Assembly (NCBI GenBank): GCA_944412445.1
Contig: CALYBJ010000014.1
Span: 1 to 64,000 of the forward strand
DNA: 64,000 nt
From: an uncultured Clostridia bacterium
GTDB taxonomy: Bacteria; Bacillota; Clostridia; Oscillospirales; Acutalibacteraceae
Direction of reading: 5' to 3'
The translations under genes and the position numbers were made by a program. The notes beneath the pieces are model-generated. The model saw nothing but the letters and a program-made list of their open reading frames with translations. It was not told the origin of the DNA and did no database searches. Shown in pieces: positions 328 through 3,741 of this stretch. Each line of letters opens with the position of its first letter. The stretch's first letter is position 1.

Positions 328-636
328 ATGAACAAAACAGAAATCACAAAGCGTTTAAAACCCGGATGCAAATTATATGTTTACCTTGAGGACACGGAAA
401 CGGCATTAAAATTCGCGGAAGACGCCGAGAACCAAGGCTTTTTATTCGGCGACGGCAAAAAGCCCACGGAAAGAACCATGGAGATGATAATGGCAGTAAA
501 CGAAGATAAAACAATAAACTATGTTGGCTTTACAGGCTTTACGGCATACGGCTGCAAAGCGAAAAAAATCGGAGAAAAAACCTTAATAAGAGTTGATTAT
601 AAAAAGCATCTGCAAAAAGCAAACAAAAAAAATTAA
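328..636 (+). CDS. SAM-riboswitch-controlled small protein of unknown function
   Basis: Encodes 102 residues that I do not recognise as any named family. It is soluble: no signal peptide, no membrane segment, no metal-binding Cys cluster (two Cys, residues 11 and about 84). It is Lys-rich at both ends, with a central stretch of alternating acidic and hydrophobic residues. The start chosen is ATG 328, which has AAGGAGA at 313-319; an upstream in-frame ATG at 244 lies inside the riboswitch and is rejected. It is the first gene after the SAM switch, so a role in methionine, SAM or methylation metabolism is a guess from regulation only. The next gene begins 61 bases on with no terminator between. 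Confidence 0.8.
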   Translation: MNKTEITKRLKPGCKLYVYLEDTETALKFAEDAENQGFLFGDGKKPTERTMEMIMAVNEDKTINYVGFTGFTAYGCKAKKIGEKTLIRVDYKKHLQKANKKN

Positions 637-697
637 GCCTTGCTTCTTTCGGTTTTATATGCCATTATAGAATAAACTTATTTTAGGAGCTGATAAT

Positions 698-1624
698 TTG
701 AAAAACAATTATATCTGCGGAAGCTATATTCCCTCTGCGGAAGCAAAGCAGGAGGATTTGCAGAAAATCAATTTTAACAAAATCACTCATGTTTTTATAG
801 CCTTTTCCACACTGCACAGGGAAAACGATTTATATTTGCCTCAGGTGGGAAGCGACACGGAGCAGGGACTTCGCCTTATTCAAAAGGAAATCGCCCGTCA
901 AAAGGCTTCTTGCCAAATGTTAATATCAATCGGAGGAGCAGGAGCAGGATTTTTCTGTGAAGCTTCTTCAAATGAAGAAAACAGAAAGGCATTCGCATTA
1001 AGATGTGCCGAATTTATAAGCCGTTATTCTCTTGACGGAATTGATTTGGACTGGGAGTTTCCGGGGCTTCGTCATCTGGATGTCAGCGCCTGCGACCACT
1101 GCGTCAGTGATTTTACACTGCTTTGCCGGGCAATAAGGGAAGAAATCGGCGGCAAGCTTTTAACCTCGGCAATGGGCTCCGACCACTGGAACAGACTTGA
1201 AAACACACAGCTTAACAAGCTTCTTGACTATGCGGGAATAATGACCTACGACATGGACGAGGAATCCCACAGCAAAATGTCCCTTACAAAAAGCGCCATG
1301 GAGGGCTGGGCGGCTAACGGCTTTGACAGGGAAAAACTGCTTTTGGGCGTGCCCTTTTACGCCAGAAGCAGGATTGAGAAATACAACTGGATGGGCTACG
1401 ATATAATCAAAGAGAGAGTAATAAACGGCGACGGAAAAATTTTTGAAAAGGACGGTCAGAGCTACGCCCAGCTGGACGGAGATGTTATGTCAATAGACAC
1501 GCCGGAAGCAATAAAAGAAAAGGTTTCCTACTTAAAGGAACAGGGCTTCGGAGGAATATTCTGCTGGCAGGAGCTTTCCGACTATAACGGTGAGCTGAGA
1601 GACGCCATGTATATAAATATTTAA
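698..1624 (+). CDS. glycoside hydrolase family 18 protein (chitinase-like)
   Basis: A 308-residue single-domain GH18 TIM barrel. The family signature DxxDxDxE is intact as DGIDLDWE at residues 113-120, with Glu120 the expected proton donor; SIGGAGAGF near 77-85 is the second conserved strand and GGIFCWQE near the end carries the usual Trp. GH18 enzymes cleave beta-1,4-GlcNAc links in chitin oligomers or N-glycan cores. There is no signal peptide and no carbohydrate-binding module, so it probably acts in the cytoplasm on imported oligosaccharides. The start is TTG 698 with AGGAG at 685-689. No terminator separates it from the small gene upstream, so it may share the SAM-controlled transcript. 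Confidence 0.88.
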   Translation: MKNNYICGSYIPSAEAKQEDLQKINFNKITHVFIAFSTLHRENDLYLPQVGSDTEQGLRLIQKEIARQKASCQMLISIGGAGAGFFCEASSNEENRKAFALRCAEFISRYSLDGIDLDWEFPGLRHLDVSACDHCVSDFTLLCRAIREEIGGKLLTSAMGSDHWNRLENTQLNKLLDYAGIMTYDMDEESHSKMSLTKSAMEGWAANGFDREKLLLGVPFYARSRIEKYNWMGYDIIKERVINGDGKIFEKDGQSYAQLDGDVMSIDTPEAIKEKVSYLKEQGFGGIFCWQELSDYNGELRDAMYINI

Positions 1625-2403: not shown

Positions 2404-3741
2404 TTAATATAGCATTAAAGCCATTATTGTTTCGTATGCAACTGCTATAATTGCAATTATCATAGGTCCCGTGCCGATATACGCTCCAGCAAGAGTTTTA
2501 TTTGAAATTTTTGCCGAGAACGGATGAGGCGCCCAGGAAAAATCTCTGCCCACATTAACAAGGGGCGATTTATACAGCTTTTTCGGGGTCTTGAATCTGA
2601 ACAGTATAAAGGCGCATATAAGTCCCAGAACTATAAATCCGTAGAAAAATATGTTGCAAAGCATATATTGTGATGAATCTGTTCCGTAAAAGTCGGCAAC
2701 GATTGTTACGGCAACGGAAAATGCGTTGTTTATAAAGTGGATTATTATACCCGTCCATATTGACTCGGTAATTATAACCGCATAGCCTATGGCAATTCCC
2801 GCTATAAACGCAAAGGGAATCTGAACAAGGTTGCAGTGCATTAATGCGAAAACAAATGAGGAACACAAAACCGCGAACATATCGCCGTATCTTCTGAGAG
2901 GCTGCATTATAACGCCTCTCAGAGCCATCTCTTCAATAAACGCCGGCACAACAGCCGAGCTTACAAAATAAAGGTTTATGCCCAGCGGGTCAAAGGGCGT
3001 CTTAACGGTTTCGGGCAGATTGATTTCAACGCCGAAAAGAGTTTCAATAAACTCATTGAAATATCCGGTAATTATATTTCCTATAAGACATATTCCGAAA
3101 GCCGCAAAAACAATCAGCGGCAGAAGAGAAGGATTCTTCGGTTTTTCCGCAGGAATCCTGCAGCCGCAGCTTTTCCTTGTTAAATATCCTAAAAGGAAAA
3201 AGGGGCCTCCTACAAACAGCACGGAATAAAGTATCTGAAAAAGATACTGAACCCTTGCGGTGTTCCAAAGAAGGGCAAAAGCGTTGTAATCAGCTGAGCC
3301 GCTCGCTTTGAAATAGCCCATAAACATCTGAAACGCTCCAACAAAAAGCGATGACAGAATTATATACAAAAGCATGGAGCCGCCGCCTACCGCGCTGAGC
3401 TTCCTTAAATTGTTTTTTTCTCTGCGCCACAAATCAGCAGGAATAAAAGAAGGAGGTCTGCGGAAATTTTCTCCGCCGTAAAAGCCGCCGCCTTCCGGCT
3501 GACCGTTTGTATAAAAACTTCCGTTTCCTTCCGGCTGACCGTTTGTATAAAAACTTCCGTTTCCTTCCGGCTGACCGTTTTTATAAGAATCAGCATTTTC
3601 ACTTGACCGGCTGTCAGTGTAAAAACCGGCATTTTCACTTGACTGACCGTTTCCGTAAAAATTACCGTTCCCGCTTTCCGGCACATTATAATAATTATTT
3701 TCCTCCGACGGTCTGCCGTCTTCTCTCGGCTCATAATCCAT
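2404..3741 (-). CDS. CPBP family intramembrane metalloprotease with repeat-rich N-terminal tail
   Basis: A 445-residue protein. Residues 1-100 are a hydrophilic Asn/Gly/Tyr-rich tail with repeats of the form NGQPEGNGSFYT, encoded by a 36-bp DNA repeat. From about 120 there are seven or eight membrane helices. The CPBP (Abi) motifs are present: EEMALR at 270-275, FALMH with His302, and HFINN with His335, which bind zinc in this glutamic protease-like family (relatives of Rce1). Relatives process prenylated proteins or peptides, but the substrate here is unknown. The start ATG 3741 follows GGGGGAG about 13 bases upstream. It is transcribed alone, ending at the hairpin 2366-2392. Confidence 0.85.
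   Translation of the reverse strand: MDYEPREDGRPSEENNYYNVPESGNGNFYGNGQSSENAGFYTDSRSSENADSYKNGQPEGNGSFYTNGQPEGNGSFYTNGQPEGGGFYGGENFRRPPSFIPADLWRREKNNLRKLSAVGGGSMLLYIILSSLFVGAFQMFMGYFKASGSADYNAFALLWNTARVQYLFQILYSVLFVGGPFFLLGYLTRKSCGCRIPAEKPKNPSLLPLIVFAAFGICLIGNIITGYFNEFIETLFGVEINLPETVKTPFDPLGINLYFVSSAVVPAFIEEMALRGVIMQPLRRYGDMFAVLCSSFVFALMHCNLVQIPFAFIAGIAIGYAVIITESIWTGIIIHFINNAFSVAVTIVADFYGTDSSQYMLCNIFFYGFIVLGLICAFILFRFKTPKKLYKSPLVNVGRDFSWAPHPFSAKISNKTLAGAYIGTGPMIIAIIAVAYETIMALMLY
3491..3598. repeat. 36-bp tandem repeat inside the CPBP gene
   Basis: Two identical 36-bp units (3491-3526 and 3527-3562) and a third diverged one (3563-about 3598), with weaker echoes further on to about 3660. Because the unit is a multiple of three, copy number can change without shifting the frame; it encodes the 12-residue NGQPEGNGSFYT unit. 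Confidence 0.9.

Follow-up and report, generated by a model that had tools for sequence, protein, structure and literature searches.

The window, which is the whole 64,000-nucleotide stretch of DNA that was analysed, forms the start of contig C14 in a 2.02-Mb draft genome, so the sequence upstream of base 1 is invisible. A promoter, a riboswitch with its terminator and antiterminator, and a gene for a protein of 102 amino acids were all found on the forward strand within positions 133-636. The promoter scan placed a sigma-70 promoter (TTGACA-17-TATAAT, 12/12, with a TG before the -10 element) at 133-161, ending 4 nt before a SAM-I-type riboswitch aptamer (166-250) that lacks helix P4 and carries a pseudoknot, CAGC/GCTG, between the P2 loop and J3/4. 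The 3′ strand of helix P1, GATGGGC (243-249), is followed by an intrinsic terminator at 262-285, AACGCTTATC-TGAC-GATGGGCGTT plus a T run, the 3′ arm of which (276-282) repeats the GATGGGC of the P1 strand. A Shine-Dalgarno sequence, AAGGAGA (313-319), precedes the gene of the 102-aa protein, which starts with ATG (328-636), encodes a predicted soluble alpha/beta domain and represents what is called family A below. After a gap (637-697), a 308-aa GH18 hydrolase is encoded on the same strand from a TTG start (698-1624) behind the Shine-Dalgarno sequence AGGAG (685-689), and a terminator was called behind it at 1631-1656. The SAM switch and both open reading frames listed in the first-pass annotation were thus recovered by Rfam and in the ORF list. 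Short tandem DNA repeats were also seen by eye at 3490-3600, where the minus strand encodes the N-terminal portion of a CPBP/Rce1-like protease (2404-3741).

The aptamer was recognized at 166-250 by the Rfam SAM-I model RF00162 with 49.9 bits (gathering score 44.4), and by R1, a covariance model built from 40 aptamers of the family-A loci, with 85.8 bits. The draft genome contains three SAM-I switches: the window copy, one before metK and one before a paralogue of the 102-aa protein. The fold was borne out by covariation among the 40 aptamers, in which 94.7% of the cells were paired and two-sided changes occurred in 16 of the 28 pairs versus 8.2 in shuffles, none of the 500 shuffles reaching as high; sliding the partner strand, as a control, cut the pairing to 27-41%. 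In the pseudoknot between the P2 loop and J3/4, the four pairs were paired in 100% of the cells and each showed a two-sided change, CAAG/CTTG being swapped for CAGC/GCTG in the window and for CAGA/TCTG and others elsewhere.

Helix P4 was absent from all of these aptamers, its positions being deleted in the Rfam alignment and missing in the 40-aptamer alignment. According to the structural description in PMC6890682, the solved SAM-I structure has a P4 helix, and its SAM pocket is made of residues 6-8, 11-12, 44-47, 57-59 and 87. When these residue numbers were mapped by hand onto the 40 aptamers, A6, U7, G11, A12 and the CAAC and GUG cores were invariant or nearly so. The SAM-IV model RF00634 had no match in the draft genome at E ≤ 10, and the SAM-I-IV model RF01725 gave the window 32.6 bits, which falls short both of its cut-off (41.1) and of the 49.9 bits reached by RF00162. 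With P4 missing as well, the RNA was classified no further than as a SAM-clan variant that lacks this helix and stands closest to SAM-I.

The 5′ arm of the terminator (265-271) is able to pair with either copy of GATGGGC, the one at 243-249 as an antiterminator (duplex energy of -9.3 kcal/mol) or the one at 276-282 as the terminator (-13.3 kcal/mol). This arrangement of repeats is the usual layout of an off-switch, and high SAM should therefore stop transcription before the gene. From the fold and from precedent we infer repression by SAM: when SAM is ample, P1 would be closed, the terminator would form and the gene would be off, and when SAM is scarce, the 3′ strand of P1 would pair with the 5′ arm of the terminator and the gene would be read. 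Across the family, a promoter-like site of at least 9/12 was present within 90 nt upstream in 60 of 67 switch-bearing loci, a count made without a shuffle control, and most such sites end 3-8 nt before the aptamer. The same script, likewise without a shuffle control, called a terminator downstream of the aptamer and ahead of the gene in only 47 of the 67; in some loci (e.g. L080, L087 and L090) a hairpin over the ribosome-binding site was called instead.

The 102-aa protein had no Pfam and no NCBIfam match at E ≤ 1, and 35 family-A members compared with Pfam, PHROGs and PADLOC yielded just scattered weak matches of a few members. The orphan status suggested by the first-pass annotation was thereby upheld, no curated family of Pfam, NCBIfam, PHROGs or PADLOC covering the protein, and so was its position under a SAM-clan switch, given an RF00162 score above gathering. 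The coding frames of the family are under purifying selection, with a median dN/dS of 0.31 and values below 0.5 in 62 of the 69 usable pairs, i.e. those of the 2278 pairs with dS between 0.1 and 1.5. The ribosome-binding site and the frame were retained in nearly all copies. The conserved residues were mostly structural or lay within a D-x-T-I-N-Y/F-V-G-x-x-G motif; catalytic-looking conserved residues and an enzyme signature were not found in the family. There is no membrane-like stretch and the net charge has a median of +1, by which a DNA mimic like ArdA was ruled out. The protein is small, predicted to be soluble and probably non-enzymatic.

An AlphaFold2 model of the 102-aa protein reached a pLDDT of 85.7 and a pTM of 0.77. 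A fold search against PDB with this model returned no match at E ≤ 0.001. The RemA-like DNA-binding fold was a weak structural match (Z 2.4, rmsd 4.3, 58 aligned residues), the best of 235 chains. In the viral fold library BFVD, small uncharacterised proteins of phages came up consistently, if weakly, the best at E = 0.010. At one locus (L081:1396-2013), a frame of 206 aa was observed to contain a tandem pair of family-A domains, preceded by one switch.

The GH18 frame matched PF00704 (Glyco_hydro_18, E = 1.7e-40), and its translation contains DGIDLDWE, which we take to match the GH18 motif DxxDxDxE. The nearest solved relatives are chitinases (best 5gzu, E = 3.2e-36), and no signal peptide was seen by eye. 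None of 97 other related genomes held a relative at E ≤ 1e-30, and among the 73 loci tested GH18 stood behind family A solely at the window locus. The GH18 gene is a local, lineage-specific passenger and not part of the unit of promoter, switch and family-A gene, referred to below as the cassette. The lack of a terminator between the two genes, pointed out in the first-pass annotation, was reproduced: the scan of 637-697 called no terminator, and no promoter reaching 9/12. Read-through into GH18 is therefore possible, and the two genes are possibly co-transcribed.

Homologues of family A were searched by protein similarity alone; they belong to Ruminococcus-type bacteria of the gut and the rumen and to the viruses of these bacteria. 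Their distribution is patchy: 6 of 60 relatives had one, and so did 31 of 398 genomes from the taxonomic family, 12 of 394 from the order and 2 of 398 from the phylum, in samples that overlap. Scanning named genomes turned up 31 loci, including those of Ruminococcus bromii YE282, Ruminococcaceae bacterium P7, Ruminococcus sp. zg-924 and numerous rumen MAGs. Family A was further present in 7 viral contigs and in 1 of 50,697 phage records, that of Ruminococcus phage NatCom_28274; none of 72,556 plasmids carried it at E ≤ 0.01. A restriction to one order, at which the 2 of 398 for the phylum hinted, was ruled out by switch-linked copies from further families within the class (L161, L164 and the distant L165).

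The pairing of gene and switch holds almost throughout the family. Of 84 loci, 9 with identical or contained genes were dropped, and in 68 of the 75 distinct loci an R1 switch lay upstream of family A, with scores of 63.8 to 105.1 bits; the R1 scan comprised 76 rows, of which 8 were second switches or not upstream. Rfam alone gave a switch in 67 of the 75; the gathering score was missed by two, L050 with 30.1 bits and L091, the same place as L028, with 43.8. This count weighs more because R1 was trained on these same loci. The switch was just upstream in all 8 loci of phages or viral contigs, and 2 of the 3 SAM-I switches of the draft genome precede family A. The question raised with the first-pass annotation, whether homologues also follow SAM-clan switches or lie elsewhere without them, is thus answered in favour of the pairing.

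Seven of the 75 loci had no switch (L019, L041, L029, L032, L077, L093 and L094). Among these, the gene lies behind another gene in L019, L029 and L032 have short leaders of their own, L093 is a fragment, and in L094 the gene stands just 83 nt from a contig end. In L032, a ZMP/ZTP riboswitch (555-636) on the opposite strand adjoins the family-A gene. A same-strand ORF followed family A within 150 nt in 14 of 73 loci, with no visible recurrence save in L022 and L091, where the downstream ORFs look alike by eye; a conserved operon partner was ruled out accordingly for these 73 loci.

The cassette is located in phages and has been acquired repeatedly. The second family-A copy of the draft genome (contig C22) lies in a prophage behind terminase, portal, integrase, ArdA and an Ig-domain structural protein. 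NatCom_28274 carries family A behind the switch, in a short plus-strand group beside opposite-strand genes, and this copy adjoins a C5-cytosine DNA methylase and a second DNA methyltransferase. In eight loci (L029, L066, L067, L068, L070, L071, L072 and L074) a neighbour was found that we take, by our own reading of the sequence, to be serine-recombinase-like. When 119 of 199 neighbour proteins were scanned, integrases were the commonest family (4), ArdA occurred in 2, and housekeeping genes were plentiful, so many family-A copies clearly sit in chromosomes. A tree of 68 rows was built on few columns, with 29 of 65 inner branches left open; the viral label needed 4 changes on it, and the starred branches forced 2. 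The two copies of the draft genome stand apart in it, L012 with the viral L057 (100/90) and the window copy with L015, L076 and L078 (86/87). The switch and family A appear to move together from one genome to another.

Second P4-less switches were also recorded in elements of the serine-recombinase type (L066 3340-3429, L067 7485-7574, L068 7342-7430, L070 7485-7573, L071 6443-6532 and L074 6487-6575), where they precede HNH or unknown genes. In L066/L136 the second switch is accompanied by a mere short stub frame, as if the cassette had decayed.

The reverse search was carried out with R1 over 200 genomes of the family. It gave 32 places of at least 77 bits, the next scoring 61, a gap that is not absolute since L058 (73.0), L169 (67.7) and L050 (63.8) fall inside it. 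Family A followed in 19 of the 32 places. The other 13 preceded family B (3), N-formylglutamate amidohydrolases (2, PF05013), further small proteins (2), metK (1), an amidohydrolase of PF01979 (1), an orphan plus a hydrolase (1) and interrupted or decayed units (3); therefore, the switch is not confined to family A. The PF01979 amidohydrolase (L131) is, by our own reading, presumably MTA/SAH-deaminase-like. A search of viral contigs by aptamer pattern, blind to the protein, found 21 contigs, all with at least 90 bits by R1, of which 15 had family A behind the switch (three pairs with identical genes), 1 had family B, and 5 had a different small frame or none. Among 196 class genomes, 10 had a match at E ≤ 1e-14. 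Nine further class loci comprised family A (3), a distant relative (1, E = 3e-7), metK (1), other small frames (3) and a frame that looked formylglutamate-hydrolase-like by eye.

Family B is a second orphan family behind the P4-less subtype, of about 140 aa and with the motif YFSxxDGWGE (L125:2880-3302, L126:1553-1975, L127:3025-3447 and L143:8530-8943). No Pfam match was obtained for the three members scanned, and the structure prediction was poor (pLDDT 60.9 for 141 aa) and was set aside. N-formylglutamate amidohydrolases were found directly behind P4-less switches in three genomes (L128:2913-3671, L135:1644-2675 and L166), with PF05013 matches in L128 and L135 and an assignment by eye in L166; this would be an unexpected enzyme under predicted SAM regulation. 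Two metK switches also score as the P4-less subtype (L130 and L168, 99.5 and 74.7 bits), and switches linked to metK are a possible cellular source of it.

We propose, with a probability of roughly 0.8, that the window copy is a mobile, self-contained and SAM-repressed cassette that makes one small soluble protein at low SAM. Such a cassette would consist of a strong promoter, a P4-less SAM-I-type switch, a terminator (in some relatives a hairpin covering the ribosome-binding site) and a single small protein. Ruminococcus-type Clostridia would carry it on phages, prophages and further elements and, in some cases, in the chromosome, and the GH18 gene would be within reach of read-through here by chance. 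Counting against the proposal are the 7 of 75 loci that have no switch, the 13 of 32 subtype switches that stand ahead of other genes, the terminator called in only 47 of 67 loci, the many copies next to housekeeping genes instead of phage genes, and the weak likeness of the fold to phage proteins (best BFVD E = 0.010).

What the protein does can be named only tentatively. One guess, which we hold to be rather unlikely, is that it acts as a non-enzymatic binding protein when SAM is short and adjusts a process of the host or phage that consumes SAM or depends on methionine. Another reading, a module spread by phages whose P4-less switch reads host SAM and whose new protein acts in a methylation-linked conflict or takeover, the methyl-donor state of the host deciding the outcome, is more doubtful still. 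A modulator of methyl or methionine metabolism and a SAM-gated function of a phage or element were given about equal weight.

The former would make family A a member of the methionine/SAM regulon of the host, for example a modulator of SAM synthesis or salvage that phages merely picked up. It is possible, though improbable, and is favoured by what else the subtype precedes, namely metK (L130, L168), the MTA/SAH-deaminase-like amidohydrolase (L131) and the N-formylglutamate amidohydrolases (L128, L135); judged by the metK and deaminase-like genes, a methyl-related role for family A may be considered. However, presence in 31 of 398 genomes of the family is patchy for such a member, no metabolic neighbour is conserved, no conserved residue looks catalytic, and the nearest folds are those of uncharacterised phage proteins. 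For this lack of an enzyme signature and of a conserved neighbour, and because the gene is often found in phages, the suggestion of the first-pass annotation that the 102-aa protein is a new piece of sulphur or methyl metabolism is no more than a possibility.

The latter would be a counter-defence, a methylation-linked takeover or a lysis/lysogeny cue gated by the methyl-donor state of the host, and we regard it as conceivable rather than probable. The locations in a complete phage and in prophages, the prophage copy near ArdA and the phage copy beside two DNA methylases are consistent with it. Methylases and ArdA were, however, few among the 119 scanned neighbours (ArdA in 2), many copies lie outside a visible phage context, and the median charge of +1 does not agree with an ArdA-like DNA mimic.

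It is very improbable that the leader RNA itself is the product, as a SAM-binding sponge or a trans-acting RNA, with the protein incidental: a few decayed loci (L136, L137) do keep the switch with a stub frame alone, but the protein is under purifying selection and its ribosome-binding site and frame are kept in nearly all copies, and a standalone leader RNA was rejected on dN/dS. Least probable, and next to negligible, is the alternative in the first-pass annotation that an unrelated unit captured the switch and that the pairing in the window is accidental, which stands for GH18 (0 of 97 relatives at E ≤ 1e-30, 1 of 73 loci) but is wrong for the 102-aa gene, since 68 of 75 loci have the switch.

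In a search of open-licence literature, no paper on the cassette of switch and family A was found. SAM-I switches are known from textbooks as controllers of methionine genes. With SAM-I (S-box, RF00162) the window switch shares the core, the kink-turned P2, the pseudoknot, the conserved positions of SAM contact, a terminator-type platform and a score above gathering; it differs by the lack of P4 and by a partner that is an orphan protein in phages, and not only genes of methionine, cysteine or SAM. SAM-IV, as characterised in PMC6890682, also lacks P4, but RF00634 had no match in the draft genome at the E value given above, and RF01725 (SAM-I-IV) stayed below its cut-off. The GH18 chitinases have PF00704 in common with the hydrolase of the window, which lies outside the cassette. 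The BFVD phage proteins I6R9N2, A0A8S5SUX2 and A0A1S5R1R0 resemble family A weakly (Foldseek probability 0.98-0.99, E 0.011-0.019), and with 14% identity over the alignment the likeness is one of predicted fold only.

The cassette offers a tight and testable regulatory model, and SAM shortage is the physiological condition in which a function of family A should be sought. A switch subtype that is carried by phages and tied to an orphan family would mean that mobile elements read the methyl-donor supply of their host. Riboswitches are described in PMC9004378 as a rare feature in phages, and its account of methylophage Melnitz includes a glutamine riboswitch that is located on the phage and controls a phage gene. 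Both the Melnitz riboswitch and the family-A cassette are phage-borne metabolite switches before a phage gene, and they differ in the ligand and in the gene.
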